DNA of 64,000 nt from Neolewinella aurantiaca (GTDB lineage Bacteria; Bacteroidota; Bacteroidia; Chitinophagales; Saprospiraceae), in the NCBI RefSeq assembly GCF_008014675.1, contig NZ_VOXD01000016.1:1-64000 (forward strand), read 5' to 3'. The notes under the pieces were generated by a model that was not told where the DNA came from, searched no databases, and saw only the letters and a list, made by a program, of their open reading frames with translations. Numbering within the stretch: the stretch's first letter is position 1; each line of letters opens with the position of its first letter. A program made the position numbers and the translations under genes. Below, piece after piece: positions 14,786-55,734 of this stretch.

Positions 14786-14920
14786 AGTTGTGTTAAGTAC
14801 GTTTGCTGCTCAGTCGGAGCGCGAAGATGAGCACTTTGTGACCTTAGGAAGGTCACGCCAGGTCCGGCCTCCTTTGTAACATCCCCCGAAGGATCGGTAG
14901 GCAGAGTCGGGCAACGGTTG

Positions 14921-14928
14921 TACCTTTG
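14921..14928 (+). promoter_or_regulatory. Bacteroidota -7 box upstream of rlmN
   Basis: TACCTTTG fits TAnnTTTG exactly, 82 bp before the rlmN start. No clear TTG -33 element is found at the usual spacing. Confidence 0.5.
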
Positions 14929-15009
14929 CGGCCGCTAAGGGAAACCCTCTTCGGAGGAAAACTGTTTGACTTCAAATCCTTTCGCTAAACTATTGATTTA
15001 CCCCGCCTT

Positions 15010-16062
15010 ATGGATACTGCTACAAAGCTCACCGACATACGGACCCTCTCCCTGGAAGAACTCACTTCTCAGCTCATCCTGACCGGAGAAAAAAAGTTCC
15101 GGGCCAAGCAGGTCTACCAGTGGCTTTGGGAAAAAGGAGCCCGCAGTTTCGACGATATGACGAATCTTTCGCTCGAGCTGCGCGAAAAACTGAAGGAACG
15201 CTACAGCCTCCTTGTCGTTACCGAAGATAAGGTGCAGCGCAGTAATGACGGCACCATCAAAAGCCGCTTCCGGCTCCACGATGGCCACCTGATCGAATCC
15301 GTTTTGATTCCCGTGGTGGCTGATGATCGTTTCACCGTCTGTGTCTCCAGCCAGGTGGGCTGCAGCCTTACCTGTACTTTCTGCGCGACCGGCCGCATGA
15401 AGCGCCTGCGCAACCTCACCGCGGCTGAAATTTACGATCAGGTGTTCCTCGTCAACCAGCAGTGCATGGAGACGTACGGCAAGCCACTAACTAACATTGT
15501 CTACATGGGAATGGGCGAGCCGTTGCTGGCTTATAAAGAAGTTGTTGGCAGCATCGATCGTATTACCAGCCACACCGGTTTGCATATGGCGCCACGGCGG
15601 CTGACGGTTTCTACTGCCGGTATTGCCAAAATGATCAAAAAATTGGCCGACGACGATACGAAGGTCAACCTGGCCATCAGCCTCCATGCCGCAGACGACG
15701 TGAAGCGCAACGAGATTATGCCCATCAACGAAAGCAATAACCTGGAGGTACTCGTCGACTCTCTGGTCTACTTTTACGCAAAGACCAAGAAGCGCATCGG
15801 TTTCGAGTACATCACCTTTCAGGACTTCAACGACACCCTGGAGGACGCCGAGAAACTCTACCAGATTTGTAAGCAGGTGCCCAGTATGGTCAACATCATC
15901 GAGTACAACCCGATCGACAATGCACCCTTCCGGAAGTCTGCCGAGCACAACATCGATGATTTTGCCACTTACCTCCGGGATCGGGGCGTGATGGTGACCG
16001 TCCGCCGTAGCCGGGGTAAAGACATCGACGCTGCCTGCGGACAGTTGGCGAACAAAGGATAG
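15010..16062 (+). CDS. rlmN: 23S rRNA/tRNA adenine-C2 methyltransferase RlmN
   Basis: 350 aa, the usual length. Radical-SAM enzyme that methylates C2 of A2503 in 23S rRNA and, in many bacteria, A37 of some tRNAs. The [4Fe-4S] motif C-x3-C-x2-C is at C118/C122/C125 (GCSLTCTFCATGRM), with the family motifs MGMGEPLLAY and VSTAGIAKMI, and the conserved C-terminal Cys (about C343, AACGQL) that forms the methyl-Cys intermediate. ATG start at 15010; no strong ribosome-binding site is seen, as is common in this phylum. A -7 box lies at 14921. Stands alone, transcribed away from the TPR gene. Confidence 0.97.
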   Translation: MDTATKLTDIRTLSLEELTSQLILTGEKKFRAKQVYQWLWEKGARSFDDMTNLSLELREKLKERYSLLVVTEDKVQRSNDGTIKSRFRLHDGHLIESVLIPVVADDRFTVCVSSQVGCSLTCTFCATGRMKRLRNLTAAEIYDQVFLVNQQCMETYGKPLTNIVYMGMGEPLLAYKEVVGSIDRITSHTGLHMAPRRLTVSTAGIAKMIKKLADDDTKVNLAISLHAADDVKRNEIMPINESNNLEVLVDSLVYFYAKTKKRIGFEYITFQDFNDTLEDAEKLYQICKQVPSMVNIIEYNPIDNAPFRKSAEHNIDDFATYLRDRGVMVTVRRSRGKDIDAACGQLANKG

Positions 16063-16084
16063 TAAGTCAGCCGTGCTGTTCAGG

Positions 16085-16110
16085 GGGCGCGGCCGCTGGT
16101 GCAAAGAACG
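16085..16110 (-). repeat. Dispersed GC-rich element, copy E5
   Basis: Read on the minus strand: TTTGCACCAGCGGCCGCGCC plus one C. Lies just after rlmN and before the 16238 gene. Confidence 0.75.
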
Positions 16111-16237
16111 TTCTCAAAAACATCGGATGCAGGATAAAAGTAGGCCCCGAGGGCAACGACCAAAGCATCCTTGCGTTCTACTGAAACCAACACAAAAAAC
16201 AAACGTTACAAAGGGCCTTGTGCCCACACACATATAA

Positions 16238-18037
16238 GTGTCTGAATCCATATCTCACGAACATTTTCCCAGAAACATACTTGCCTTGCGTTTTCTACTC
16301 TGCTATTTCATCCTCGGCCTTGCACCCGCGTTGAGCGCCCAGATTGCTGCTCCTGACCTGCTGTGTACCCGCTCCGAATCCGGCGCCGTAATCCTCAATT
16401 GGGAAAACGCAGCCGTCGGCTGCGGCCCTTACGAAGCCACCGAGATTTATTCCGCCACCGCTCCGGATGGCCCTTTCAGTCTGCTGGCCGAAGTGAACGA
16501 TCCCGCCGAAACGATGTATTCCGACGCTAATCCAACGGGAGAATTGCGCTACTACTACATGAGCTACCGCTATAACTGCCCTGGCCAGACGGCCATGAAC
16601 AGTGATACCCTGGACAGTTTCATCCCCCGCAGCCCGGTGGTGCGGTACGTCAGTGTAGAAGACAACGAAATAATCATCGACTGGAGGGCCTCTTCTTCAC
16701 CCGAAGTAACCGGTTACATCATCCTGGAGGTTACCCCAACGGCCTTCATTCCACTTGATACCGTGTACGGAGTTACAGACTACCGGTTTCCGTTTTCTGC
16801 AGCCGACCCCGACCCGGCCAGCCGCGAGTTTCGCCTCGTAGCTATTGATCCATGCGGAAACGACAGCCCGCAGGGCTCCATTGTTTCCGCGATGAACCTG
16901 AGCGCAACGGGCGGATCGGGCTGTACGAGTGAGATCACACTTATGCCGGATTTGACGAGTCTGAGCCGCTACCTGCCCGCTACCGCACTCGAGTTGTTCG
17001 TTTCTACCAACGGCAGCGCTTACGTCTCGGCGGGCACCTTCGGGCCCGCAGCACCAACCGTTGACTACGACGGCGCAAACGACGGCGATGATCTTTGTTT
17101 CTACCTCGAAGCTGCTATCGCCGAAAACAACAGTCGCGCCCGCTCTACCGTGTTTTGTACCTCGGTCGTGATCAATCAACCCGCACGGCAGATGGATCTC
17201 TACGGTGTTGAAGTTAGTGACAACGGCGACCTGCTCTTCCAGTACGACGCCAGCGTTATTCAACCGGTACTGACCGAATCCGTCTACCTCATCGCCCGCA
17301 CCAACGGCGTACTCGAACAGGACAGCTCCCTGCCAACCGACCTGACTGCCGCCGGAGGCCAGGCAACCCTCGCCGGACCGCTGGCCGACCCGTTGGAAAG
17401 TGGCGAAACAGTAGCCTTTCGCCTCACCGATGACTGTATGCGCGAAATAACCACCAACGCGGTGGAGCCCGTTTACCTCACCGCTACTGAATTCTTTCCG
17501 GGGCAGCATCAACTGAGCTGGACGCCCCTCATCAATGGCCTGGCCGGCGAAACTACCTACGATGTCTTCCGCACCGATGCCGGCTCCGCTCCGGTAACCC
17601 TGGCCACAGGGCTTACCGATCTGCGTTTTCTGGACGAAAACTCAGGTGCCGGAGGAGAGGTCTGCTACGAAATTCGGGCGACGTTCCGGCCGGAGGGAGC
17701 CGCTACGGCGGAAACCTATGTGTTTAGCTCTAACACGGACTGCATTACCCCCGTTTCTGAGGTGTTCGTGCCCAATGCTTTCAGCCCCAATGGAGACGGA
17801 ATCAATGATGTATTTCGTCCTTTCTTTTCTCCGCTCCCGGCGGAGGCAGACTACGAGCTTCTCGTATTTGACCGTTGGGGAGCACTCGTTTTCGAGTCCA
17901 ACGTACCCCTGGAAGGGTGGGATGGGTCTTACCGGGGTAAGCTGATGACCAACGGAGTGTTCGTATACAGCCTGCGCTACCAGGCCCGTGAAGGCCTGGT
18001 TTACACCCGTAGCGGTACCGTTAACCTTCTGCGGTAA
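16238..18037 (+). CDS. Secreted protein with gliding-motility-type (T9SS type B) C-terminal domain
   Basis: 599 aa. A hydrophobic signal segment (ALRFLLCYFILGLAPALSAQ) is followed by several fibronectin-III-like beta-sandwich regions. Residues about 509-599 form the gliding-motility-associated C-terminal domain typical of T9SS type B cargo: VPNAFSPNGDGINDVFRPFF, then YELLVFDRWGALVFES and WDGSYRG. Proteins of this kind pass Sec, then the T9SS, and are attached to or released from the surface. The apparent start is GTG at 16238; a later TTG is possible, but no ATG precedes the signal segment. Ligand or enzyme activity is not apparent. Confidence 0.9.
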   Translation: MSESISHEHFPRNILALRFLLCYFILGLAPALSAQIAAPDLLCTRSESGAVILNWENAAVGCGPYEATEIYSATAPDGPFSLLAEVNDPAETMYSDANPTGELRYYYMSYRYNCPGQTAMNSDTLDSFIPRSPVVRYVSVEDNEIIIDWRASSSPEVTGYIILEVTPTAFIPLDTVYGVTDYRFPFSAADPDPASREFRLVAIDPCGNDSPQGSIVSAMNLSATGGSGCTSEITLMPDLTSLSRYLPATALELFVSTNGSAYVSAGTFGPAAPTVDYDGANDGDDLCFYLEAAIAENNSRARSTVFCTSVVINQPARQMDLYGVEVSDNGDLLFQYDASVIQPVLTESVYLIARTNGVLEQDSSLPTDLTAAGGQATLAGPLADPLESGETVAFRLTDDCMREITTNAVEPVYLTATEFFPGQHQLSWTPLINGLAGETTYDVFRTDAGSAPVTLATGLTDLRFLDENSGAGGEVCYEIRATFRPEGAATAETYVFSSNTDCITPVSEVFVPNAFSPNGDGINDVFRPFFSPLPAEADYELLVFDRWGALVFESNVPLEGWDGSYRGKLMTNGVFVYSLRYQAREGLVYTRSGTVNLLR

Positions 18038-18208
18038 AAAGATTCTGCTTGTCCGGTTTAGGATGGTAATGGCTAAAGATTCTGAAATTCGGATAAATTT
18101 ATTTTGACGCAACTTGTCTGTTAATCACGGCGTTATCCTTCTGTCGTGAAAAAAGCCAGGCAAAAGTTTGGTTCAACGGTTTCAATGAGCCTATTTTTGC
18201 GCCCCGAT

Positions 18209-18279
18209 GGTCGGTTGGCCGAGCGGTTAGGCACAGGTCTGCAAAACCTGCTACAGCGGTTCAAGTCCGCTACCGACCT
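18209..18279 (+). tRNA. tRNA-Cys (GCA)
   Basis: A complete 71-nt cloverleaf can be drawn. Acceptor GGTCGGT pairs with ACCGACC; D arm GCC/GGC; anticodon arm CAGGT-CTGCAAA-ACCTG with anticodon GCA; variable loop CTAC; T arm AGCGG-TTCAAGT-CCGCT; discriminator U, as expected for tRNA-Cys. CCA is not encoded. Confidence 0.97.
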
Positions 18280-18285
18280 CATAAG

Positions 18286-18320
18286 AAAAGCCCGGACTGC
18301 TTGCGCAGCTCCGGGCTTTT
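18286..18320 (+). terminator. Intrinsic terminator of tRNA-Cys
   Basis: Perfect 11-bp inverted repeat AAAAGCCCGGA / TCCGGGCTTTT seven bases after the tRNA. Its A- and T-tracts could work on both strands, so it may also serve the minus-strand gene that stops at 18352. Confidence 0.9.
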
Positions 18321-18351
18321 CTGTTTTACAGCTATTTGGCTGAAATCGGTT

Positions 18352-18687
18352 TTACTCTTCATCCACGGATTTATACTCTACCCGGAACTTCTCGATCATT
18401 TCCGGACTGATTGCATCAGCATACACACCATATGCATCGATCAGGATGCCTTTGGTGCCGTCGTCGGCTTCAATACCGTACAGTACGGAGTTGTCAGACG
18501 GGTTGGTCATTCCCTCAAAACGGTAAGTATGGGTGATGGTGAAATTTTCGGGCTTGAAGTTCTTCTTAAGTTTTTTGCACTCAAGGTGAAATTCAGCCTG
18601 ATCGAAATCATGGTCATATCCCTTTTCGCGGAGATCTGCGATTCCGTCGGTAAGGGTAGAGTAATGGTTTTTCTGAATGATTGGCAT
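18352..18687 (-). CDS. Small conserved Bacteroidota protein of unknown function
   Basis: 111 aa, no signal peptide or membrane segment. The phrases DLREKGYDHDF, YRFEGMTNP and VDAYGVYADAISPE resemble a short protein family of this phylum that databases often label phosphoribosylpyrophosphate synthetase; the protein is far too short and lacks the PRPP-binding loop, so I do not adopt that name. ATG at 18687. It is transcribed toward the tRNA terminator, and a terminator for the next upstream gene lies behind it, so it is likely monocistronic. Confidence 0.8.
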   Translation of the reverse strand: MPIIQKNHYSTLTDGIADLREKGYDHDFDQAEFHLECKKLKKNFKPENFTITHTYRFEGMTNPSDNSVLYGIEADDGTKGILIDAYGVYADAISPEMIEKFRVEYKSVDEE

Positions 18688-18765
18688 GGCTGTGGTGGAT
18701 TTGGTTATGTTCTGCAGTTAAAACCGCATCATCCCCCCGCTGTGTTCGCTTTCAGTGCCCTCAAC

Positions 18766-18819
18766 AAAAAAAGCGTTCAGTACTCAGACTGCCCGGAGGG
18801 CAGCCCGAACGCTGAACGC
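18766..18819 (-). terminator. Intrinsic terminator of the sigma/Hsp20 pair
   Basis: On the minus strand GCGTTCAG and CTGCCC pair with GGGCAG and CTGAACGC around a small loop with an internal bulge, followed by seven Ts. It lies about 80 bp after the Hsp20 stop. Confidence 0.8.
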
Positions 18820-18898
18820 TGTTCGGCAAGGCAACCAACCGGAAGCCAGGCTTTTATCGCCCGATATCCGGACGACGTCGGGTGCTTAGCCCTGTCGG

Positions 18899-19366
18899 TT
18901 AGCTGATGGTGATCTCCCGTTCCGGAGCCTGAGCAGCCGACGTTTTCGGAGCTGTAATCACGAGAATACCGTCTTCGAAAGTGGCCGTGATGGCCTCCTG
19001 GTCTACGTGCTCACTGAGCTCGAACCAACGTTCGAACGATTTAATGGGGAATTCCTGCAGCAGCCAGTCGGGGAACTCATTTTCTGGCTGACGGGAGCCG
19101 CTGATGTAAATCATATTGTCGATCAGATTGATCTTGACGTTTTCCTTAGCAAAACCGACGCAGTAAACGCGGGCGATAAAGCTGTTGGCGGTCTCTTCGA
19201 TGTTGACCGGCACGTTGTGGCGGGGCCGACGGCGCCCGGGGCCGCCCATACGGCGACCATGGCCTCCGCCTGGGTGATGATGTCCGCGAGGGCCACCGTG
19301 GCGGTGCGGACGATGATGAGGGTGGTTGGGGTGGCCTCCGGGGCCACGTCTGTGTTGCTTGCGCAT
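18899..19366 (-). CDS. Small heat-shock protein (Hsp20/alpha-crystallin) with His-rich N-terminus
   Basis: 155 aa. Residues about 58-150 form an alpha-crystallin domain (IEETANSFIARVYCVGFAKE, ISGSRQPENEF, ATFEDGILVITAP), the ATP-independent holdase fold. The first 50 residues are unusual: almost only His, Gly, Pro and Arg with 12 histidines, including HPHHRPHRH and HHHPGGGH. Such a stretch could bind metal or nucleic acid; this is inference. The ATG at 19366 keeps this tail in frame, and the tail DNA shows no sign of frameshift. The ECF sigma gene ends upstream on the same strand with a 54-bp gap, so the two are probably co-transcribed and possibly stress-controlled. Confidence 0.9.
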   Translation of the reverse strand: MRKQHRRGPGGHPNHPHHRPHRHGGPRGHHHPGGGHGRRMGGPGRRRPRHNVPVNIEETANSFIARVYCVGFAKENVKINLIDNMIYISGSRQPENEFPDWLLQEFPIKSFERWFELSEHVDQEAITATFEDGILVITAPKTSAAQAPEREITIS

Positions 19367-19420
19367 AATTAATTGTTTTATTTGGTTCAGTAGGGTAGAC
19401 GGGGTAGGGCGGTGATTACT

Positions 19421-23869: not shown

Positions 23870-23918
23870 AGGCTTTGCGGATGCAAAGATAATAACCATT
23901 GAAGTAGGGTGGAGGTTC

Positions 23919-24050
23919 TGGAGTCTGGAAGCGCTACGCTTTGAGTCGGGAGTCTGGAGTCTCGAGTCTGGAGGCGCTGCCGCGTGACTCCCGACTCAAG
24001 ACTCCCGACTCCCCAACTCCCCAACTCCCGACTCCCAAACTCCCGACTCA
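23919..24050. repeat. GAGTC-word repeat cluster A
   Basis: Reiterated GAGTCTGGA/GAGTCGGGA words followed by the complementary CTCCCGACTC words, so the block can fold on itself. It contains a copy of a longer unit (AAGCGCTACGCTTTGAGTC ... GGCGCTGCCGCGTGACTCCC) also found in cluster B. Confidence 0.85.
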
Positions 24051-24053
24051 CAA

Positions 24054-24090
24054 GGCGAGGCCGCAGGTACAAGGGGTGTTGAAAGGCAGG
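24054..24090 (-). repeat. Dispersed GC-rich element, copy E1 (divergent)
   Basis: On the minus strand: CCTGCCTTTCAAC, then TTGTACCTGCGGCCTCGCC. A weaker match to the core, but with the same CTGCCTTTCAAC lead as copy E3. Confidence 0.6.
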
Positions 24091-24167: not shown

Positions 24168-24197
24168 AAAACCTTTCTTCGCACCTGCGTTCGCGCC
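24168..24197 (+). repeat. Dispersed GC-rich element, copy E2
   Basis: AAACCTTTCTTCGCACC then TGCGTTCGCGCC. Opposite in direction to E1, 77 bp away. Confidence 0.75.
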
Positions 24198-24202
24198 GCT
24201 TT

Positions 24203-24368
24203 GGAGTTTCGAGTCGGGAGGCGCTTCGCTTGGAGTCTGGAGTCGGGAGTCTGGAAGCGCTACGCTTTGAGTCGGGAGTCTCGAGTCGGGAGTCTGAAGG
24301 CGCTGCCGCGTGACTCCCGACTCCCGACTCAAGACTCAAGACTCCCAAACTCCCGACTCCCAAACTCC
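24203..24368. repeat. GAGTC-word repeat cluster B, abutting the kdsD stop codon
   Basis: Same words as cluster A, with the duplicated unit at about 24253-24330; it runs directly into the TAG of kdsD (24369-24371). Confidence 0.85.
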
Positions 24369-25343
24369 CTAAACCAGTCCTTCCCGGATGAGGTCATGCA
24401 GGTGCAAAAAGCCGAGGTACTCGCCGGCCCGGCCGGTTACGACCAGCTGGCTGATGTTGTGGGTTCGTAACGACTCCAGCGCCTTGATGGCCAGGGTGTC
24501 GTGATCGACGGTTTTTGGGTTGGTCGTCATGATTTCGGCTGCGGTAACCTCCTCGAGGTCGGGGTTGCCGTTGAGCATGCGGCGCAAATCGCCGTCGGTA
24601 ATGACGCCCGCCAGGAGGCGGGAGCCGGGGAAGAGGACTGCCGTTGCACCGAGACGTTTACCGGTCATCTCCAGCAGGATCTCCCGGAGGGGGCTGTCGG
24701 TGTTCACGGCCGGAACCTGGTTGTTTACGTAGAGGTCGGAGACCCGGAGGTAAAGTTGCTTGCCCAGCGAACCGCCGGGGTGAAAACGGGCAAAATCGTT
24801 GGGCTTGAAGCCCCGCAGGGCCAGCAGGGCCGTGGCCAGAGCGTCTCCCATTGCCATTTGGGCCGTAGTGCTGGCCGTAGGGGCAAGGTCATTGGGGTCA
24901 GCCTCGCGGGCAACGGGGGTAAGCAAAATGTGGTCGGCAAGCTGGGCCAGACTACAGTCTTCGCGGCTTACCATAGCAATGAGGGGATTGCCGGACTGGC
25001 GAACCAGCAGGGCCAGCATCTTCAACTCGGCGGTTTCTCCACTTTTGCTAAGGCACATAACGAGGTCTTCTGGCCTTACCATCCCGATGTCGCCGTGAAT
25101 TGCGTCTGCGGCGTGTAAAAAAAGCGCAGGTGTGCCAGTGGAATTGAGCGTGGCCACAATCTTTTTAGCTACGATCGCCGTTTTACCTATTCCGCTAACA
25201 ACCAGTCTGCCGGGCGAACTATACACCTTGTTGACGCAGGCCACGAAGTCTTCTCCGATGGTGTCCACCAACGAAAGCAGGGTTTGCCCTTCTATTTGAA
25301 GTGTATTCCGGGCAACACGAATGATTTGGCTTGTATTTTTCAC
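24369..25343 (-). CDS. kdsD: D-arabinose 5-phosphate isomerase (KpsF/GutQ family)
   Basis: 324 aa. Converts ribulose 5-phosphate to arabinose 5-phosphate, the first step of KDO synthesis for lipopolysaccharide. An N-terminal SIS domain (about 35-175; VVSGIGKTAIVAKKI, HAADAIHGDIGMV, LSKSGETAELKML) is followed by two CBS domains (about 205-324; GVITDGDLRRML, LHLHDLIREGLV), the standard layout. The start appears to be GTG at 25343; no in-frame ATG lies close upstream. Divergent from recQ, an arrangement I recall from other Bacteroidota. Confidence 0.95.
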   Translation of the reverse strand: MKNTSQIIRVARNTLQIEGQTLLSLVDTIGEDFVACVNKVYSSPGRLVVSGIGKTAIVAKKIVATLNSTGTPALFLHAADAIHGDIGMVRPEDLVMCLSKSGETAELKMLALLVRQSGNPLIAMVSREDCSLAQLADHILLTPVAREADPNDLAPTASTTAQMAMGDALATALLALRGFKPNDFARFHPGGSLGKQLYLRVSDLYVNNQVPAVNTDSPLREILLEMTGKRLGATAVLFPGSRLLAGVITDGDLRRMLNGNPDLEEVTAAEIMTTNPKTVDHDTLAIKALESLRTHNISQLVVTGRAGEYLGFLHLHDLIREGLV

Positions 25344-29989: not shown

Positions 29990-30086
29990 TGGCTTGGGAG
30001 GTACCGATCTTTTGGGCGACCTCGTCCCGCTTCATGCCCTTCTCTTCTCTGATAGTTTTTAGTCGAAGTCCGAAATCTGCGCTCAT
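29964..30086 (-). pseudogene. Truncated XRE-type HTH gene
   Basis: Forty codons from the ATG at 30086: MSADFGLRLKTIREEKGMKR and DEVAQKIGTSQAIIGRYERG, then TAG. This is the first two-thirds of a Cro/CI-type HTH, cut exactly where the fold needs helices 4-5. Not a copy of the XRE gene at 29114. Its 3' end is fused to the CHC2 fragment and its promoter side to a truncated IS3, so it is a remnant. Confidence 0.75.
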
Positions 30087-30493
30087 AATGTGCTAGATGT
30101 TACTGTTTTGTACTTGATAACGCTAACATAGATTTCATCCGGTGCTCTGGCTGGCTCCCTTTCCAGTAATAAATTGGGACTACGCCTTAAGTTCGGGTGA
30201 GTTCTCGTCGTCTTGGGAACAAATGATTTAGGCTGAATCGCCCGTAATCCGTGGTCTGCCAGAATAGTTCGAACTGTTTGACGACCTACTTGAATTCCAT
30301 CGTCAGCCAACTCCGACACCAGACGCCGGGTACCATATCTGCGTTTGTGAAAGTGAAAAGCCGCAATCAATTTACGGGTTATTTCGCTTTGTGATGACGT
30401 GACCGAAACGCGTTCGAAACGGTCATAGTAACTGCTCCTGCTGACCCGCATCAACTCACAAAGTAAGGAGATCGAGTGAGCATTTCCGTGCAT
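30083..30493 (-). pseudogene. IS3-family transposase OrfB, truncated before the catalytic core
   Basis: 136 codons. Contains the OrfB N-terminal HTH_21 region (RKLIAAFHFHKRRYGTRRLV, VGRQTVRTILADHGLRA) and the start of the rve integrase domain (SPNLLLEREPARAPDEIYVS), then diverges and ends; the D-D-E catalytic residues are all lost. In intact elements OrfB is made by -1 frameshifting from OrfA. Confidence 0.88.
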
Positions 30494-30974: not shown

Positions 30975-31011
30975 GGCGCGAACGCAGGTGCAAAAAAACG
31001 TTGAAAGGCAG
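30975..31011 (-). repeat. Dispersed GC-rich element, copy E3
   Basis: On the minus strand: CTGCCTTTCAACG, seven Ts, then GCACCTGCGTTCGCGCC. Paired in inverted orientation with E4 about 50 bp away. Confidence 0.8.
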
Positions 31012-31044: not shown

Positions 31045-31059
31045 TTCTTATGACCTCAC

Positions 31060-31080
31060 TATGCACCCGCGACCGCGCCC
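31060..31080 (+). repeat. Dispersed GC-rich element, copy E4
   Basis: TATGCACCCGCGACCGCGCC plus one C, ending two bases before the ATG at 31083. Confidence 0.8.
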
Positions 31081-31082
31081 AG

Positions 31083-31841
31083 ATGCCGGCTTTATTTCCC
31101 TTAGTTCTTTTATTATCTCTGTTTTTTGCCTGTGATCCCGCTCCGCGGGATATCCGGGATTATTACTTCCCCGCCCGCGAATTGGCAGAACGGGGGCTGG
31201 TGTACGTATACGAAAACACGGGTTCGCTGCCCGGCCCCGATCAGGAATTTACCTACTGCCTGGGGGTGGCTCAGGATACAGCGCTCTTCCTGAGCGTAAC
31301 CCAGTATGATGGGAATTTCAGCCCCCGCCAGCAAACCCGGCAGGAAATAAAAAATGACGGAGTGTACATCCGTGACCTCATGTTACTACAAACCGACAGC
31401 TCAGGAGTACCTGTTCCCGTAGCGACAGAACTCCTCTACGACCGGGCTTTCCCGTTTTACCTAAACGGTATGACGGACAATGCAGCCAACGGCTACCGGC
31501 TCCGCTTCCAGGCTCCCTCCAACGAAACAACGACTACTTATGTCTCACTGAACCGGACAGTGCGGGGAGATACCTCCATCACGGTGTTGGGCAAAAGCTA
31601 CCCGGCTATTGTGTTTGACCTGGCCGGAGAGGTGAGTGAACGGGATACTGAGCTGGGAGACATCAGCCCTCAGTTTACCGGGTTCGAGATTTATGCAAAA
31701 GGCCTTGGTCTGGTAGAATACCAGCGCGTGCTGAGTGTAGGCGCCACCCTGGGGGGGCGGCTAACGGAGCGTGTAGATATGGATACTTTCCTGGAACGGG
31801 TGGAGCGGCCCGCCGAAGACCACAGTACACACGGGCATTAA
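31083..31841 (+). CDS. Lipoprotein of unknown function
   Basis: 252 aa from the ATG at 31083, chosen because it opens a lipoprotein signal (MPALFPLVLLLSLFFACDPA, lipobox Cys at residue 17); an earlier GTG frame adds 24 residues coded by the repeat-containing spacer. The rest is beta-rich without a family I recognise: phrases YFPARELAERGLVYVYENTG and GFEIYAKGLGLVEYQRVLSV suggest a fold of the kind used by outer-membrane-anchored lipoproteins of this phylum. The C-terminus is His-rich (DHSTHGH). Convergent with the next gene, only 8 bp apart. Confidence 0.8.
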   Translation: MPALFPLVLLLSLFFACDPAPRDIRDYYFPARELAERGLVYVYENTGSLPGPDQEFTYCLGVAQDTALFLSVTQYDGNFSPRQQTRQEIKNDGVYIRDLMLLQTDSSGVPVPVATELLYDRAFPFYLNGMTDNAANGYRLRFQAPSNETTTTYVSLNRTVRGDTSITVLGKSYPAIVFDLAGEVSERDTELGDISPQFTGFEIYAKGLGLVEYQRVLSVGATLGGRLTERVDMDTFLERVERPAEDHSTHGH

Positions 31842-38603: not shown

Positions 38604-39110
38604 GAAAGGGGCGTTTGGGTATCACGAGGAACCAGCGTTCAACAATGGTTGGTCCGGAGGGCGAGAGTGTTTATCTTCGGTGGGGTCCTGAAACGCTAAG
38701 ATACGGCGGGTTGTCGTGTCGCCCCTGGCCGAATCGCGCTCCGGGCATCCTCCGGCTGCTGGTTCCGGTGATGATGTGAGCGGGGCGCAAAACATACCGC
38801 TTCGTGATACGCCCGCGCCCGGAGGTCGCGTTGGCCGTTCGCAGCCGAAGGCTGCAGCAACCCTGGTGGGAGGAGTAACCCGGTGCTCCCAAAAACCTTC
38901 CCCTGCACCTGCGGCCGCGCCCACAAGAATTAAACTTAATTACATCAATAGCATTAGTTTAGATTGTGCAGGCGCGCCATTTTTAACGCCAAAACAACCG
39001 CAACTTAATACAGGTCAGAGGATTGGCGGAGCATTTGTATACACACTTGCGTAGCCTCTGATTATTCCCTCCCGCGAATTTTCGCTAACTTCGCGACAAA
39101 GTCGAAAACC
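38604..39110. other. Intergenic region between response regulator and acyl-CoA dehydrogenase
   Basis: About 500 bp, divergent promoters. GC-rich in its first half with several small palindromes, then dispersed element E6 and an AT-rich stretch before 39111. No gene supported. Confidence 0.5.
38894..38922 (+). repeat. Dispersed GC-rich element, copy E6
   Basis: AACCTTCCCC then TGCACCTGCGGCCGCGCC plus one C. Confidence 0.8.
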
Positions 39111-40274: not shown

Positions 40275-40381
40275 AGGGCAGATTGCAGAAATCAGGATGC
40301 AGAGGGCAGAATGCAGAGAGCAGAATGTTTTGACATTGCACTCTGCCTTCTGTACTCTGCTTCCTGCCTTCTGCCTTCTGT
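40275..40381. repeat. GCAGA-word repeat able to form a long hairpin
   Basis: Left arm of reiterated GCAGAnnGCAGA/GGCAGAATGCAGAG words (40279-40325), right arm of complementary TCTGCCTTCTG words (40341-40380). It starts a few bases after the acyl-CoA dehydrogenase stop. Confidence 0.85.
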
Positions 40382-40384
40382 CCC

Positions 40385-40392
40385 TACCTTTG
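40385..40392 (+). promoter_or_regulatory. -7 box directly before the 40398 start codon
   Basis: TACCTTTG fits TAnnTTTG and ends five bases before the ATG, so transcription from it would begin at or within a base or two of the start codon. Confidence 0.55.
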
Positions 40393-40397
40393 CGGAG

Positions 40398-42086
40398 ATG
40401 CACCCCCCAAACCACACCAAGCTCCCTTTTTGGCTCAAACTCGCAATTGCAGCGTTTACCCTGGTTTACACCTGGTTCTATTACCAGCCGATGTTAACCG
40501 AGCCGTATATGCTCAACGATGACGTAGTGCAGCACTACCTGTGGTTGTTCGTCGATTACTACGGGCTCAATTGGAAGGATACTTTTTACGCCGATGCTTC
40601 GGCAGCCATTCAGCCGCGCGGTTTTTATTACCTGCTTTGGCTGCTTGGCCGGGTATTTGATCCCATCACGATTTCGCGGGGAGGCCCCTTCCTTATATCC
40701 CTGCTTACGGTGGGCTTTGGTATGGGGTTGCTGCGGCGGTACACGCACTTTTTCATTGCTCTGGCGGGCTGTTTACTGGCGGTTCACCTGGGGCTTCACA
40801 CCAGTGTCGGCTTTTTGGCAAGATCGTTTTTGATGCCGCTGTTGCTTGCCTTTGGGTATTACCTTTTGCGGGCCGACCAGCCCTGGGGGCTGGCGGGGGT
40901 TACCGTAGCGTCGGCATTGTTTTATCCGCCGGCTCTGCTGCTCAACGGTGGCATTTTTGGCTTGTGGAAACTGGGCGAACTGGTACAGTGGTTACGTGGG
41001 CGCGGCCGCAGGATGCAAGGAAAGGTTGAAGAAGCAAAGCAGCTTCGTTCTCCGTTCCATCGCTGGTACGTTCATCTGCTGGGTTTCGGAATCGCCCTGT
41101 TGGTGGTGCTGGCGCACGCCCAGCGGGTAGATACGCACCCGACACTGGGCGGGTACCTGCCCAACGAGGAAATGATGAGCCTGCCGGAACTTGGCATCGG
41201 AGGACGGGTAGACATCAGTGGCGCGCTGCGGGCAACTCCCTCCCGACGGATAGCGTACTTCTTCTACAACGACGCAAGAACTCCTTTTGGAGACTGGTTT
41301 GCTAACGCGGTACTCGTGTTGGTGGTCATCTTTACCGGTTTACGCTATAAGAAACTGGGAAAACCGGGTGCCTGGCTAATTGCTTTCGGCGTCAGCTCCC
41401 TTGTTTTATTTTACTTTGCCCGGCACGAGTTTCCCCTGCTTTTTCTGCCAAGCCGCTACCTGGCTTACCCGTATCGCCTTTGGATTCCTATGCTCTTTAC
41501 TTTTCTGTTGGCGGTAGGGTGGTCTTACTATCCTAAAACATGGTTGGCGGTTTTGTGCGGATCGCTGCTGCTGGGCCTTGGCTATTACCGGCAGCCCCCG
41601 TCGAAGATGCCTGTCCATACGGAGTCTGGCCGAGCATATCTCTTCGATGCAATCGCTCAATTGCCGGAAAGTGCACTTATTGCGCTTCCTCCTCACATGG
41701 CCGACCAGGTGCCCGTCTTTGCACGGCGTAATGTGTTCATCAGCTTTGAATCGGCCCACGCCCTCTACTTTCAGAACTACCACGATTACGTGATTCCCCG
41801 CTATCAGGACTATATCGAAGCGATGACAACTACCGGCAATGACCTGGCCGGAACGGTCGCCTTTATGAATAAGTGGGACATCGACTACCTAATCATCGAC
41901 CGACAGCAACTGCGGGAAGCAGAGTTCAGTTCCTTCGTGCCCTTTCGCCGCCAGTTTGAGGATCGCCTGAAGGGTACAAATGTTGAAGACCGAACGCTGT
42001 TGCAGCTGCCCGACTCGGTCGGGATGCTCCTGCGGGAGCGGTTGCATATTGTCTCGCGGGAGGAGATTGAAGAGTTGGTTCAATGA
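40398..42086 (+). CDS. Polytopic membrane protein, GT-C glycosyltransferase-like
   Basis: 562 aa from the ATG at 40398 (MHPPNHTKLPFWLKLAIAAF); an in-frame ATG 29 codons earlier lies inside the hairpin repeat and is rejected. About ten hydrophobic segments over residues 10-415, then a soluble C-terminal region of about 150 aa (FDAIAQLPESALIALPPHMA, NKWDIDYLIIDRQQLRE). An early acidic pair ND-D (YMLNDDVVQHY, residues 34-44) suits the first-loop acid of GT-C enzymes, but no named family is certain. Residues about 201-210 (LRGRGRRMQGK) are encoded by a copy of the dispersed GC-rich element and look like an insertion in a cytoplasmic loop. Confidence 0.75.
   Translation: MHPPNHTKLPFWLKLAIAAFTLVYTWFYYQPMLTEPYMLNDDVVQHYLWLFVDYYGLNWKDTFYADASAAIQPRGFYYLLWLLGRVFDPITISRGGPFLISLLTVGFGMGLLRRYTHFFIALAGCLLAVHLGLHTSVGFLARSFLMPLLLAFGYYLLRADQPWGLAGVTVASALFYPPALLLNGGIFGLWKLGELVQWLRGRGRRMQGKVEEAKQLRSPFHRWYVHLLGFGIALLVVLAHAQRVDTHPTLGGYLPNEEMMSLPELGIGGRVDISGALRATPSRRIAYFFYNDARTPFGDWFANAVLVLVVIFTGLRYKKLGKPGAWLIAFGVSSLVLFYFARHEFPLLFLPSRYLAYPYRLWIPMLFTFLLAVGWSYYPKTWLAVLCGSLLLGLGYYRQPPSKMPVHTESGRAYLFDAIAQLPESALIALPPHMADQVPVFARRNVFISFESAHALYFQNYHDYVIPRYQDYIEAMTTTGNDLAGTVAFMNKWDIDYLIIDRQQLREAEFSSFVPFRRQFEDRLKGTNVEDRTLLQLPDSVGMLLRERLHIVSREEIEELVQ
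40998..41028 (-). repeat. Dispersed GC-rich element, copy E7, inside a coding sequence
   Basis: On the minus strand: CAACCTTTCCTTGCATCC then TGCGGCCGCGCCC. The copy keeps the frame of the 40398 gene. Confidence 0.75.
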
Positions 42087-43924: not shown

Positions 43925-43952
43925 AACCAAGCCCGCACCCGCGTCCGCGCCC
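43925..43952 (+). repeat. Dispersed GC-rich element, copy E8
   Basis: AACCAAGCC then CGCACCCGCGTCCGCGCCC, about 80 bp before nadA. Confidence 0.75.
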
Positions 43953-45038: not shown

Positions 45039-45272
45039 GGGCAACAATGCCTTCACGAGAGATCTGCCGCCTTCACCTCCGGTAAACAGCCGGGATGAGC
45101 GCCTTCAAGTCGCGTGAATTTGGCGTTGGTTCAGATTTTAAGATTGGAGATTGGTTTGCGCCCGTTTAACCCTTAGCTTGAGGATAGGTCGGAGTACAAC
45201 GCCTCTACCGGAGACCGGTTTTTATAATTTGCGCGAATGTGGCGTATTGGAAGGAAAGGGTCGTTAATCTAC

Positions 45273-46770: not shown

Positions 46771-46784
46771 ATGCCGAAATTGAA

Positions 46785-47710: not shown

Positions 47711-47733
47711 GCTTTGCACCCGCGGCTGCGCCC
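47711..47733 (+). repeat. Dispersed GC-rich element, copy E9
   Basis: GCTTTGCACCCGCGGCTGCG then CCC, 28 bp before the 47761 start. Confidence 0.8.
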
Positions 47734-51572: not shown

Positions 51573-51607
51573 GGAAACTCAAGATTCTTCGAATATTAAC
51601 CCTCCAA

Positions 51608-53107
51608 ATGGTACTTGCCTGGACGCTTTTCTTACTCTACCTGCTGGGTACCTCCTACCTCGGGTGGTTGGGCCTGAAAAAAACCGACGGGTTCAGCAGC
51701 TTTGCGATTGGTAAGGGAGACCTGTCTCCTTTGCAGGTGGGGGTTACCCTGGCGGCCGCAACGGCCTCGGCGGCAACCTTCATCATCAACCCGGGCTTCG
51801 TTTACGTCGATGGACTGGCGGCTTTCATGCACCTGGGACTGAGCGTGTATTTAGGTTTCGTCCTCATGTTGCTGTTGCTCTCGTTTCGTTTTCGGGAGCT
51901 TGGCTCGGCGTTTCACGCCCTGACCATTCCTGACTGGATCGGTAAACGGTACAACTCCCGGAATTTTTCCCTCTACTTCGCGGTCATCAACCTTCTGAGC
52001 TTCGCTTTCATCGTGTTGCTGGTTGGTGGGATATCGATCGTGATGCAGCAACTTCTGGAGGTTTCCAACCTGGTTGCGCTGGCCATTACGCTCGTTTTCG
52101 TTACGGGCTACGTACTGATCGGGGGCACCTACGCCCACGTTTACACCAATATGTTTCAGGGCTTCCTGATGGTGGGTGTATCGGTGCTGGTTATCGGGTC
52201 TGGCATCGTACTCATGGCCGGTACCGAAGATTTTTGGGGCGCGATCGCAGGTGCCGGGGAAGGGTTAATGGGGTACGTTAACCCCGAAAGCCGGTTCTTC
52301 AAAGATGTTTTCTCGACGTATATCGCCGGGTTTTGTATTGGTGGTGCCCTGGTTTGTCAGCCGCATATCCTGACTAAGGCGCTGTACGTAAAAACCAACC
52401 GGGAAGTCGGCCGCTACATCGCCATCTTTTCGGTGGTGTACCTCCTCTTCACGATGCTCTTGCTCGTGGGCTTCTGGGCCCACGTTGCGGTGCCAGCCGA
52501 AGCACTGACCGATCCTGCTACCGGGCTCTTTCGCCAGGACCTGGTGATGACGGCCTACCTGAAAGAAACCTTTCCCGACTGGCTCTTCACCATCGTCAGT
52601 GTGGTTCTGCTGGCCGCAGCTATGTCGACCCTCGATGGCTTGCTGGTGGGTATCTCAACGATCACCGCCAACGACCTGGTGCTCAATCTGCTCCGCAGGA
52701 AGAAGGAAGGAGACGAAGAAAAACAACTGCGGCTGGCCATGCGGGTCAGCCAACTGGTGCTGGTGTTGGTGGCCATTGCTGCATTTTTTGTCGCGTTGCA
52801 CCCACCGCAACTACTGGGCATTTTCGGACAGGTGGGGGTTTACGGGCTGGTGCTTGCAGCGGTCCCGCCCTTACTCGCTGGTGTGCTGTTCACAAATGTT
52901 CATAAAGGCCTTGTCTGGGCCTTCTCCGTCCTGGCTCTGCTTATCCATTTTACGCTTTACCGTTACGGAACCATCTGGTTCCCCGACACAACGCTGGCGT
53001 TTGCCAACCCCGGCGTTACGGCCGCAATTGCCCTGCTCGCAACGGCCGTTCCTTCAACCATAATCTCCTGGGCCCTCCGTAACCGGCCTGCTCCCGTAAA
53101 GGACTAA
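51608..53107 (+). CDS. Sodium/solute symporter (SSS family)
   Basis: 499 aa with about 13 hydrophobic segments. SSS features: an N-terminal region with FSSFAIGKGDLSPLQVGVTL, the Na2-region phrase AATASAATFIINPGFVYV, the GGTYAHVYTNMFQGFLMV segment and VVLLAAAMSTLDGLLVGIST near TM8. Substrates of the family include carboxylates, amino acids and sugars; none can be assigned. First gene of a three-gene unit with an 11-bp gap to the next. Confidence 0.93.
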   Translation: MVLAWTLFLLYLLGTSYLGWLGLKKTDGFSSFAIGKGDLSPLQVGVTLAAATASAATFIINPGFVYVDGLAAFMHLGLSVYLGFVLMLLLLSFRFRELGSAFHALTIPDWIGKRYNSRNFSLYFAVINLLSFAFIVLLVGGISIVMQQLLEVSNLVALAITLVFVTGYVLIGGTYAHVYTNMFQGFLMVGVSVLVIGSGIVLMAGTEDFWGAIAGAGEGLMGYVNPESRFFKDVFSTYIAGFCIGGALVCQPHILTKALYVKTNREVGRYIAIFSVVYLLFTMLLLVGFWAHVAVPAEALTDPATGLFRQDLVMTAYLKETFPDWLFTIVSVVLLAAAMSTLDGLLVGISTITANDLVLNLLRRKKEGDEEKQLRLAMRVSQLVLVLVAIAAFFVALHPPQLLGIFGQVGVYGLVLAAVPPLLAGVLFTNVHKGLVWAFSVLALLIHFTLYRYGTIWFPDTTLAFANPGVTAAIALLATAVPSTIISWALRNRPAPVKD

Positions 53108-53118
53108 AATCTCTATTT

Positions 53119-54108
53119 ATGCGAAACGCAAAAATCAGTGCGTGCGGCGCTTACGCTCCCGCACGTGTCATCCCCAACGCTTATTTCAACGAATTACTGG
53201 GCGAAGACGTAGATACCTGGCTGCGCACCAACGTCGAAATATTTGAAAGGCGTTGGTCTGCACCAGATGAGAGTTGTGCCGATCTGGCCGAGCACGCTGC
53301 CCGTCAGGCACTCGAACGCGCCAGCCTGAAAGCGGACCAGTTGGACCTGATCATCGTTGCAACCGATACACCGGAGTTTGTCTCTCCTTCCACGGCGTCC
53401 GTTGTGCAGGCCCGCCTCGGGGCGGGCAACGCTGGTACATTCGATATAAACACTGCCTGCGCGGGCTTCGTCACCGCGCTGGACATTGGCTCCAAGTACG
53501 TCCGTAGCGACGAGGCCTACAACCGCGTCCTGATCATAGGTGCTTACGCCATGAGCAAATACCTCAATATGGAGGATAAAAAGACTGTTACCCTGTTCGC
53601 CGATGGGGCCGGAGCCGTTGTACTTGAGTCCACCGAAAAAGAAGGCGAAGGCTTCCTGGCCAGCGAGCTCCGGTCTAAAGGGGAGTACAACGAATGGATG
53701 GGCATTTACGGCGGCGCCACCCGCTACCCGAATACCCCGGAGAGTATGGCTAACCACCAGCACCAACTTCAGTTTGTCCATCGTTTTCCCAAAGAACTGA
53801 ACCCGCTTACCTGGAGCGATATGGCCCGGAAACTATCGGACCGAACCAACGTGGCTCCTCCTCAGGTAGACCATTACTTTATCACTCAGATCAACATCAA
53901 CGCCATCCGGGAAACCCTGAACCTGCTGGAAGCGGACGAAGCGAAGGCGCACACCATAATGCATCACTACGGCTATACCGGCTCGGCCTGCATCCCGATG
54001 GCTTTTAATGATGCCTGGGAGAAAGGCTTGGTCAAACCCGGTGAGTTGGTGTACTTTATTGGCTCGGGGGGCGGACTTGCTTTTGCCAGCGCTGCTTTCA
54101 GGATGTAA
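53119..54108 (+). CDS. KASIII-like thiolase-fold enzyme lacking catalytic His and Asn
   Basis: 329 aa of the FabH/thiolase fold. The nucleophile C114 is present (DINTACAGF). The His of the FabH VPHQAN motif is Thr here (about T256, FITQIN) and the Asn of HGNTSAAS is Tyr (about Y286, HYGYTGSAC), so two of the three decarboxylation residues are replaced. Thiolase-fold enzymes with such changes are known to transfer acyl groups to alcohols or amines without decarboxylation; an analogous role is inferred. An acyl-CoA ligase starts 11 bp downstream and could supply its donor. Confidence 0.88.
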   Translation: MRNAKISACGAYAPARVIPNAYFNELLGEDVDTWLRTNVEIFERRWSAPDESCADLAEHAARQALERASLKADQLDLIIVATDTPEFVSPSTASVVQARLGAGNAGTFDINTACAGFVTALDIGSKYVRSDEAYNRVLIIGAYAMSKYLNMEDKKTVTLFADGAGAVVLESTEKEGEGFLASELRSKGEYNEWMGIYGGATRYPNTPESMANHQHQLQFVHRFPKELNPLTWSDMARKLSDRTNVAPPQVDHYFITQININAIRETLNLLEADEAKAHTIMHHYGYTGSACIPMAFNDAWEKGLVKPGELVYFIGSGGGLAFASAAFRM

Positions 54109-54119
54109 AAACAAAAACC

Positions 54120-55685
54120 ATGACTGCCACAGATTGGGCCGCCCGCTGGGCCGGGTACTCGCCAGAAGCCATCGCGTTTACGGATGGGGATACGGGAGAA
54201 GAACTTACTTACGGAGAACTGAACCAGGGAGGGATGAACCTCGTCGTTCATTTTCTTTCAACCCTTGGTTTGGGTCACGGAGACCGCATCGCAATTCTGG
54301 CCGAAAATAGTCTGGCTTATCCTCTGCTCTTCGTCGCTGCTCAGAAAGCCGGCTTCGTGCTCGTTCCGGTCAACTACCGGCTCAGCGCGCACGAACTCGC
54401 CTATATCCTGAAGGATGCCGCACCTGCTCTGTTGATCGCAGAAGCACAATTTTCAGCATTGGCGGCTGCTGCCTGCCAACAGTCCGGACTTAACCCGGAA
54501 TGCTGGTTACTGGAAGAAGTGTTCAACCATGCCGTAGAAGCAACCGGAGCCGTACCCCCTCTCCGAAGGAGAGCGGCCGGGGGAGAGGGCGAAGAACCAC
54601 AAAGAACCAGCCGTCAGTTGGGCACACCTCGATGGCCAACAGTGTCAGAAACAGACCCAATTTTCATTCTCTACACTTCCGGTACGACCGGCTTCCCGAA
54701 GGGGGCTTTGTACACCCACCGGATGCTGTTCTGGAACAGCGTGAATACAGCGCTTTCGTTGGTCATCAATTCCGAGAGCCGCACGCTCAACGTTATGCCG
54801 CCGTTTCATACCGGAGGCTGGAATGTGCTGGTCACTCCGCTGCTTCACCGGGGCGGACATACCGTTCTACTGAGGAAGTTCTCTGCCGGCGGGGTGTTGG
54901 AATGGCTTGAAAAAAGCAAGTCGACGGTATTCATGGCCGTGCCCACTATGCTGCGTATGCTGACGGACGACCCGGCTTTTGCAACTGCGGATCTCACGAG
55001 CTTGCGCTACATCATTGTTGGCGGCGAGCCTTTGCCTTTACCGGTTATCGAGCAGTGGCACCGAAGGGGGATTCCCATTCGGCAAGGCTTCGGGATGACG
55101 GAAGTCGGGCCAAATCTGTTCTCACTCCACCAAAACGATGCTACCCGAAAGATCGGGTCTATCGGTCGTCCCAATTTCTACGTTGAGACCAGAATAGTAG
55201 ATGAGAACGGCAGAGATTGCCCGGCTAACGTTTCCGGAGAATTGCTCCTGCGTGGCCCGATGGTAACGCCGGGCTACTGGCAAAATGAGGCTGCGACCCA
55301 ATCTGCCTTTCAGGGCGAGTGGTTCAAAACGGGAGATGTCGTACAACGGGACGAAGATGGCTACTTCTTTGTCGTTGGCCGTCTGAAAGAGATGTACATC
55401 TCCGGAGGTGAAAATGTCTACCCCGCCGAGATCGAACGCTGGCTGGAGAAGCATCCGGAAATCGCGGAGGTTGCCGTCGTCGGAACCGAAGATGAAAAAT
55501 GGGGGGAGGTTGGAAGCGCTTTCGTTGTTCCGGTGCCCGGCCATTCTCCTTCGGCAGAATCACTTGGTGGTTATTGTCGGGAAGGTTTGGCCCGGTTCAA
55601 GGTGCCTAAGTATTTCCTCCTGGTAACGGAACTACCTAAAAACGCTACGGGGAAAATTGACCGTCGGGCATTGGCCAATCTCTGA
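54120..55685 (+). CDS. Acyl-CoA ligase (AMP-dependent, fatty-acid type)
   Basis: 521 aa of the ANL superfamily. Phosphate loop YTSGTTGFPKGA (about 183-194), A5 motif QGFGMTEVGP, A7/A8 TGDVVQRDEDGYFFVVGRLK and A10 Lys in PKNATGKIDRRAL. It activates a carboxylic acid to acyl-AMP, then acyl-CoA; chain length not determined. Residues about 146-157 (PPLRRRAAGGEGE) are coded by a palindromic repeat element inserted in frame just before the phosphate-loop domain (54556-54590). Last gene of the symporter unit. Confidence 0.93.
   Translation: MTATDWAARWAGYSPEAIAFTDGDTGEELTYGELNQGGMNLVVHFLSTLGLGHGDRIAILAENSLAYPLLFVAAQKAGFVLVPVNYRLSAHELAYILKDAAPALLIAEAQFSALAAAACQQSGLNPECWLLEEVFNHAVEATGAVPPLRRRAAGGEGEEPQRTSRQLGTPRWPTVSETDPIFILYTSGTTGFPKGALYTHRMLFWNSVNTALSLVINSESRTLNVMPPFHTGGWNVLVTPLLHRGGHTVLLRKFSAGGVLEWLEKSKSTVFMAVPTMLRMLTDDPAFATADLTSLRYIIVGGEPLPLPVIEQWHRRGIPIRQGFGMTEVGPNLFSLHQNDATRKIGSIGRPNFYVETRIVDENGRDCPANVSGELLLRGPMVTPGYWQNEAATQSAFQGEWFKTGDVVQRDEDGYFFVVGRLKEMYISGGENVYPAEIERWLEKHPEIAEVAVVGTEDEKWGEVGSAFVVPVPGHSPSAESLGGYCREGLARFKVPKYFLLVTELPKNATGKIDRRALANL
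54556..54590 (+). repeat. Palindromic repeat element in frame within the acyl-CoA ligase
   Basis: CCCCTCTCCGAAGGAGAGCG followed by GCCGGGGGAGAGGGC. Its inverted arms CTCTCC-GAA-GGAGAG are perfect. I know similar CCCTCTCC...GGAGAGG palindromes as intergenic repeats in many bacterial genomes. Confidence 0.75.
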
Positions 55686-55712
55686 GGAGCGTCTCTGTTT
55701 CCCCAAGCTTTT

Positions 55713-55734
55713 CTTTGCACCCGCGGCCGCGCCC
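55713..55734 (+). repeat. Dispersed GC-rich element, copy E10
   Basis: CTTTGCACCCGCGGCCGCGC plus CC. Lies between two convergent genes, so it cannot be a promoter for either. Confidence 0.8.

Follow-up and report, generated by a model that had tools for sequence, protein, structure and literature searches.

A dispersed, oriented element with strand-specific spacing in Neolewinella genomes and in phages: a possible uptake-type self-recognition site

Distribution and anatomy of the element

Examination of the 64-kb stretch of DNA that opens contig NZ_VOXD01000016.1 of Neolewinella aurantiaca (hereafter, the window) revealed a GC-rich, oriented element that recurs both between and within genes. 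When a weight matrix covering positions -22 to +24 and built from fetched copies of the element was applied, 12 sites of at least 8 bits were found in the window (Table 1), with the nearest same-strand neighbours lying 3.8 kb apart. All ten copies listed in an earlier, first-pass annotation of the window were recovered, at 0-13 bases from the positions given there, some of which mark the leader instead of the core (24168 for the core at 24181; 38894 for that at 38905). Two genic copies, 52238 (-) and 59598 (+), had been missed. Nine of the ten had been described as intergenic; according to gene calls made with a simple script of our own, rather than with a standard gene finder, eight are, with the copy at 40999 (-) being genic and that at 31063 (+) lying at the N-terminus of an open reading frame (ORF) whose start is uncertain. 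The sequence TTTGCGGCCGC near 14925, mentioned in the first-pass annotation for the rlmN promoter, is not a copy, as no site of at least 8 bits was detected there.

Table 1. Copies of the element in the window.
Feature	Position of core	Strand	Score (bits)	Remarks
Core copy	16086..16102	-	39.6	intergenic
Core copy, left member of diverging pair	24054..24070	-	31.6	intergenic
Core copy, right member of diverging pair	24181..24197	+	37.6	intergenic; 127 bp apart
Core copy, left member of diverging pair	30975..30991	-	40.4	intergenic
Core copy, right member of diverging pair	31063..31079	+	35.7	88 bp apart; near called start of ORF 31050-31841
Core copy	38905..38921	+	47.2	5' of acyl-CoA dehydrogenase gene
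Weak core copy	40999..41015	-	16.8	within gene 40311-42086; 3 mismatches
Core copy	43935..43951	+	32.2	5' of nadA
Core copy	47716..47732	+	34.6	intergenic
Core copy	52238..52254	-	38.6	within sodium:solute symporter gene 51608-53107
Core copy	55717..55733	+	39.4	
Core copy	59598..59614	+	24.8	within gene 55811-63994

The core pattern, GCACCYGCGNNCGCGCC, matched the window 17 times when up to 3 mismatches were allowed, a count reached by 0 of 100 shuffles (mean, 4.77; maximum, 11). In the whole genome of 5,995,659 bases, 853+859 = 1712 matches with up to 2 mismatches were obtained, as compared to 34+51 = 85 for the same pattern read backward. The genome-wide count is, therefore, far higher than expected by chance, and the earlier estimate of hundreds of copies was sound, the number being well above a thousand. 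Subsequent counts in the source genome (G000; other genomes are likewise referred to by number) relied on a sample of 828,532 bases, part of the 6.0-Mb total. Here, the matrix detected 246 sites of at least 16 bits, or about one per 3.4 kb, as opposed to none with the reversed matrix, although the matrix was thereby scored on its own training copies. Lowering the threshold to 8 bits only raised the count to 275, such that decayed copies are few. A variant core containing extra bases, CCYGCGCNCCGBCGCC, often preceded by a similar leader, was present in 12 copies in the sample and 55 in the whole genome.

Alignment of the copies defined a 17-bp core within an oriented unit of about 45 bp, in which TGCTC near -21, TTCAACC near -13 to -8 and CYTT at -4 are shared upstream and C plus an A-tract directly follows the core. 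The CTTTC or CTTTG leader noted earlier thus holds in part, with CTTT being found at -4 in 54 of the 246 copies. The element is, overall, non-palindromic. The suggestion that it is a structural RNA found no support: seven of the 12 copies in the window were folded as the motif strand, with z-scores from -0.35 to +1.98 and thus no structure beyond that of shuffled sequences, and an Rfam scan of the window returned a tRNA alone. Rare converging pairs, 36-40 bp apart, were noted in G011 (C126, 66614/66650 and 81068/81107) and in G000 (C9, 34545/34585); by analogy with the paired uptake signal sequences (USS) of Haemophilus, these could serve as terminator hairpins.

Placement relative to genes

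Called genes contained 106 of the 246 copies (0.149 per kb). In intergenic DNA, density amounted to 1.69 per kb where the neighbouring genes diverge, 1.07 where they are co-directional and 0.88 where they converge. The possibility of a promoter or a per-operon element, the former already dismissed in the first-pass annotation, was rejected given the mixed orientation of the copies relative to genes: matrix copies in co-directional gaps were sense in 40 and antisense in 29 cases, while among 245 pattern matches overall (up to 2 mismatches), the genic ones included 47 on the same strand as the gene and 56 on the opposite strand. The density peak between divergent genes offers a residual hint of a promoter link. 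The 17 closest diverging pairs (less than 150 bp apart) were distributed as 10 between divergent genes, 6 between co-directional genes and 1 between convergent genes.

As judged by eye, many genic copies encode stretches of small residues, and 14 of the 245 matches are located close to a called start and in its frame, where they mostly read CTCVRAQ or a near variant at the apparent end of a signal peptide. Such sites were seen on contigs C1, C2 and C8 of G000, at 31063 in the window and, in some cases, in G016 and G019. A coding repeat of signal peptides was considered as the origin of the motif and rejected, since most copies do not read in this manner; the signal-peptide use of these copies is taken as co-option and not as cause.

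Two diverging pairs in the window have neighbours of their own. Arrays of a 7-base unit (GGAGTCG/GGAGTCT, or the complement) at 23910-24060 and 24200-24370 flank the 24054/24181 pair, with a similar array lying near position 284894 of C1, and a fragment of a transposase-type HTH_21 sequence (30083-30493, minus strand) adjoins the 30975/31063 pair.

Spacing is strand-specific

When the distances between copies in the G000 sample were compared to random placements preserving the genic/intergenic split, only 8 same-strand pairs less than 2 kb apart were observed, as opposed to about 79 at random, whereas opposite-strand pairs over the same range numbered 78, with about 79 again being obtained at random. 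The deficit comprised 2 versus about 43 pairs below 1 kb and 6 versus about 36 at 1-2 kb, with depletion being more than 10-fold out to 1.5 kb. Same-strand pairs accounted for 8 of the 86 close pairs (binomial P 8e-16, with positions taken as given) and for 8 of 60 when pairs closer than 300 bp were removed (P 3e-9). At short range, diverging pairs less than 150 bp apart were in excess (17 versus 5.5 at random), and pairs less than 300 bp apart comprised 23 in the (-,+) arrangement, 3 in the (+,-) arrangement and none in the same orientation. Across four contigs, spacing was also more regular than random, with a coefficient of variation (CV) of 0.655 when both strands were pooled (random, 0.916 +/- 0.063) and of 0.61 and 0.56 for the individual strands (random, about 1.0), on each of which sites lie on average some 6.5 kb apart. 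Strand balance within the individual fetched pieces (51/53, 29/26, 20/20, 12/10 and smaller) revealed no clear bias.

The same-strand fraction of 0.093 obtained for the element was approached by none of 300 similarly abundant control 7-mers, sequences shorter than the element, for which the fraction was always at least 0.325 (mean, 0.556). The rule extended to weak sites (8-22 bits; n=47): a strong site lay within 2 kb on the same strand for 3 of them and on the opposite strand for 27. Of the variant cores (n=12), 1 had a main site within this distance on the same strand and 5 had one on the opposite strand. Nor did it depend on coding, given that same-strand pairs made up 2 of 16 pairs at 300-2000 bp when both members were genic, 3 of 29 when one was and 3 of 15 when neither was. 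In six other genomes representing four dialect types (see below), 9 same-strand pairs below 2 kb were found, as opposed to about 50 in uniform random placements, together with 60 opposite-strand pairs (about 49 at random). Individually, G011 (2 versus 12.7), G019 (1 versus 11.8), G004 (2 versus 9.9), G017 (3 versus 8.3), G001 (0 versus 3.4) and G020 (1 versus 3.7) all showed fewer same-strand pairs than random, with G020 alone not reaching significance (P 0.097); the blocks from G001, G004, G017 and G020 are syntenic and hence not independent.

A trivial origin of this rule was considered, namely, that close direct repeats recombine, deleting the intervening DNA and so purging same-strand neighbours. 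Such a process would indeed affect same-strand pairs only, yet it would have to produce a depletion of this depth and reach from imperfect copies of some 17-45 bp, and ordinary 7-mers, albeit shorter, display no such effect. As such, this explanation is deemed very unlikely. Strand-specific exclusion suggests that orientation matters to whatever reads the element, and strand-by-strand spacing may offer a quantitative signature separating a directional reader from one that is blind to orientation. A search of open-licence papers returned no account of strand-specific spacing in uptake sequences.

Conservation, gain and dialects

Positional conservation, a check proposed in the first-pass annotation, gave a mixed outcome. 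The copy within the symporter gene (52238) is kept in place in all four covering relatives (G005, G015, G004 and G017), that upstream of nadA (43935) has a counterpart of like location and orientation in both G003 and G005, the intergenic place of 47716 is kept in G005 and G015, and the place of 55717 is kept in G005. On the other hand, the nadA copy is missing in G002, G015 and G018, with G006 presenting a copy of opposite orientation about 70 bp away, and 47716 is missing in G004 and G017. The copy upstream of the acyl-CoA dehydrogenase gene has a counterpart at similar upstream distance in G005 and none in the fetched loci of 10 other relatives.

Comparison of G004 and G017, aligned over 137 kb at 78% identity, afforded a broader view. 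Excluding sites in unaligned stretches (17 of 45 in G004; 6 of 36 in G017), the motif was present within 40 bp in the partner for 25 of 28 sites in G004 and 25 of 30 in G017. At 26 fully aligned sites, differences affected 6.7% of fixed core positions, as compared to 22% of degenerate core positions and 21-31% of the flanks. Of the eight aligned sites specific to one of these species, five were ungapped and three contained gaps of 6, 12 or 15 letters; of 15 such sites in the G001/G020 comparison, six were ungapped, seven contained 2-8 gap letters and two contained 17 and 31. Hence, none of the 23 species-specific sites that could be aligned, of which 11 were ungapped, showed a clean insertion of the element, with unaligned stretches not being judged. 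These alignments point to gain by substitution and not by insertion, as expected of DNA uptake sequences (DUS) and USS.

These observations also bear on the proposal that the element is a repetitive extragenic palindromic (REP)-like mobile repeat, spread by a REP-associated tyrosine transposase (RAYT) or a similar enzyme. In line with this idea, the element is abundant, restricted to the genus and found in close inverted pairs, and genes matching PF01797 (Y1_Tnp) were detected in 20 of 21 Neolewinella genomes. REP/RAYT systems likewise comprise dispersed short repeats and inverted pairs. Unlike these, however, the element forms no hairpin, often resides in genes and, in the alignments above, was not cleanly inserted. 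Moreover, 20 of the 70 PF01797 loci, one per genome and mostly of about 3.3 kb, contained 12 sites of at least 14 bits (two each in L041 and L049), where some 9-11 were expected from the counts of the same genomes, and thus showed no enrichment. G018, a fragmented assembly, contains 1172 copies yet no PF01797 match, and the scarcity of decayed copies is equally at odds with such spread. A REP-like origin thus seems highly improbable.

Searching with up to 1 mismatch, the first motif was present in 7 to 1675 copies in 20 relatives from the same genus and in 0-12 copies in 39 genomes from other genera (16 of the same family and 23 of the same order). Species poor in the first motif revealed dialects. 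In G011, nearly devoid of it, YTGCTACTTTGNNAGYC occurs 1023 times when up to 1 mismatch is allowed, as opposed to 0-5 times in the other 20 genomes, and the sister-species dialect TGCTACTTTG is almost unrecognisable against the first motif. G007 and G001, also poor in the first motif, contain 509 and 457 copies, respectively, of CCYGCGCNCCGBCGCC, present 0-189 times in the other 19 genomes (control, 0-2); this sequence is thus the prevailing form in G007 and G001 and a secondary one in most genomes. G019 favours GCACCCGCG, while in G004, G017 and G020 core position 13 is often C in place of G. At a divergence level of about 75%, G004 and G020, which use the same dialect, have 12 of 30 or 13 of 21 of their mapped sites in common, whereas G001 and G020, using different dialects, share 4 of 21.

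No comparable motif was found in other genera in a small sample of 64-120 kb from each of G021, G023, G025 and G055. In G021, an over-represented 10-mer, CTGCAGGCCG (18 copies; reversed control, 0), was noted; it presents no extended consensus, and its close pairs comprise 2 of the same and 6 of opposite orientation.

Phage carriage

An exact scan of IMG/VR for TTGCACCTGCGNCCGCGCC yielded 23 stretches from 22 contigs. As the phages were found by way of the motif, the result does not speak of motif-free phages. Five stretches (L286, L291, L292, L302 and L304), with scores of 18-21 bits and mostly of other base composition, were read as chance matches and set aside. In each of the remaining 18, one or more sites score 30-41 bits; several of these stretches contain 2-4 sites in 6-15 kb, and same-strand sites are at least 3.3 kb apart, although many of the contigs are mutually related. 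From seven of the 18 stretches, 20 proteins were compared to PHROGs profiles. Six of these stretches encode tape measure, portal, terminase large subunit, head protease or tail proteins or an integrase, with the proteins of L297 matching only a family of unknown function. Tailed phages thus carry the full element.

In four phage types that are 47-69% identical around one site, a block of 19 bases, TGCACCTGCGTCCGCGCCC, is identical throughout. Three of the four (all but L288) were found through that very site, such that this identity is in part a result of selection; the shared in-gene place of the site is not so explained. For the G011 and G019 dialects, scans returned 4 and 2 contigs, respectively, with one match each, and were not convincing. 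Dialects may also serve to assign phages of Neolewinella to their hosts.

Candidate intracellular readers

The strand rule can be explained at least as well by a Chi-like checkpoint, the main rival to the uptake-type reading developed below, in which a directional helicase-nuclease entering from a double-strand end reads one strand and, at the site, gives up degradation in favour of recombination. Additional sites closely following in that orientation would then be redundant, while those on the other strand would serve enzymes arriving from the other side. A one-way reader of this sort predicts strand-specific exclusion, and the even tiling of both strands and the presence of the site in phages are likewise in agreement. 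Furthermore, all eight genomes searched encode a protein of about 1060-1105 residues with a PD-(D/E)XK domain (PF12705), likely a UvrD-type helicase-nuclease, although the helicase portion was read from the first residues only. The Chi sites of RecBCD and AddAB are similarly directional, over-represented and species-specific.

Such a checkpoint does not, however, account for the length of the element or its phased boxes. Known Chi sequences are of 5-8 nt, much shorter than the present element, whose 17 bp and boxes phased at about 10 bp suggest binding of duplex DNA. We know of no pairing or same-strand exclusion among Chi sites. Some Chi sites show a strand bias along the replichore; here, each fetched piece was balanced. 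The possibility that the helicase-nuclease diverges along with the dialect was also rejected, as the protein of G001, in which the dialect has switched, is 79-80% identical to those of G004, G017 and G020, much like G004 and G020 to each other (80%). A Chi-like role is, accordingly, judged unlikely.

A second intracellular possibility is an oriented site of nucleoid or loop architecture, of segregation or of a replication-linked process, where a moving protein reads each strand. Regular per-strand tiling, diverging pairs and the strong conservation of the core would all suit such a site. Still, a strand bias, as shown by the sites that FtsK or the replication fork reads, is not clear in any piece; it is not evident why phages would need chromosome architecture; and the sharing of sites drops across a change of dialect relative to that seen within a dialect at like divergence. 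This explanation is accordingly regarded as doubtful.

An uptake-type reading of the element

Copy number, an oriented extended element, core conservation, the lack of clean insertions among aligned sites, dialects, phage carriage and strand-specific spacing are all patterns observed in the sequence, and what goes beyond them is inferred. Set beside the hallmarks of USS and DUS (PMC1626085; for dialects, PMC3630211; for phages, PMC6776037), the element displays over-representation, dialects, no clear orientation bias, regular spacing, close pairs of opposite orientation, a preference for intergenic DNA, weaker segments flanking the core and phage carriage. As this list matches most of the reported hallmarks, the element is read, with about even confidence, as an uptake-type site by which self-DNA is recognised, its reader being directional, by analogy a functional counterpart of DUS and USS in Neolewinella. 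Of the three ideas advanced in the first-pass annotation, a protein-binding or uptake-type site is thus the best supported. The data suggest that the element works like an uptake sequence; it is not classed as a DUS or a USS, given that pilus machinery was not found and that spacing is strand-specific.

In the mechanism envisaged, a DNA-binding receptor would recognise the element of about 45 bp as duplex DNA, contacting weak boxes around -21 (TGCTC) and -11 (AACC), the strong 17-bp core and the A-tract, each about one helical turn from the next. Binding would favour the uptake or retention of conspecific DNA. If the reader runs one way from the site, another site in that orientation less than about 2 kb away would be of no further use, unlike a site on the other strand. 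Copies would be maintained by biased recombination of site-bearing DNA and not by need at each locus, and DNA would enter via machinery other than a type IV pilus.

Comparison with the known systems revealed both parallels and departures. The DUS of Neisseriaceae is a 10-mer that occurs in several dialects and between about 940 and 5900 times per genome (PMC3630211). Its receptor is ComP, a type IV minor pilin. Very many copies and dialects among related species are shared by the present element, which differs in its 17 bp plus flanks, its density of about one per 3.4 kb, the lack of a detected secretin and strand-specific spacing. With USS, as described in PMC1626085, PMC1939737, PMC7811141 and PMC6776037, it shares a core with flanking segments, change by substitution and not insertion, more regular spacing, some opposite-orientation pairs and accumulation in phages, USS being carried by temperate phages of Pasteurellaceae (PMC6776037). 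In USS, a 9-bp core is followed on its 3' side by AT-rich segments, and uptake is reported to be independent of orientation, whereas in the present element most of the weak boxes precede the core and orientation governs spacing. An older claim of significantly even USS spacing (Karlin et al., as cited in PMC1939737) should also be mentioned. Within Bacteroidota, Riemerella columbina was reported to prefer its own DNA in transformation (PMC7965970).

Several points weigh against the uptake-type reading. The orientation-independent uptake reported for H. influenzae (PMC1939737) would not predict a strand-specific rule, and the density here is not of about one per kb. The secretin PF00263 was detected in none of the 21 genomes. 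Matches to the pilus ATPase family PF00437 were seen in 20 of 21, of which 11 exceeded the cut-off of 24.9 bits, the best scoring 25.5 bits; as these span some 24-85 of 370 positions within long frames, they are read as probably reflecting other ATPases. On the supporting side, ComEC is present in 21 of 21 genomes and DprA in 20 of 21, although both are widespread and no proof of uptake. A receptor for the element is, at present, only postulated, and we are aware of no report of competence in Saprospiraceae, although no search aimed at this was made. Finally, when a site is missing in a sister species, there was no sign of a same-strand site nearby making up for it.

More tentatively, the element may represent an undescribed class of site, namely, a directional signal that tiles the two strands of chromosomes and phages separately, with an exclusion zone of about 2 kb on each. 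Its reader would be a Bacteroidota machine that processes DNA in one direction and differs in specificity from one sister species to the next. Should that machine import DNA, it would constitute a sequence-specific DNA gate in bacteria lacking type IV pili. To our knowledge, dialect-forming self-recognition sites come only from Neisseriaceae and Pasteurellaceae, where the type IV pilus is thought to be the reader. If correct, the uptake-type reading would add a third, independent case of self-DNA marking, in another phylum and apparently without a secretin or a pilus ATPase, implying that such marking evolves repeatedly and pointing to an as yet unknown DNA receptor. A search of open-licence papers found no such site in Lewinella, Saprospiraceae or Bacteroidota.

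Additional features of the window

Directly 3' of nadA, at 45066-45120, lies a second dispersed repeat of about 50 bp, of the CGCCTTCACCTCYGGTGAACAGC type, that folds at -32 kcal/mol. Four copies of 83-85% identity were found on C1 and C2, with further matches elsewhere. Lastly, the minus-strand gene at 55811-63994 is very large, encoding 2727 residues, and a gene of 21 kb was called on C8.

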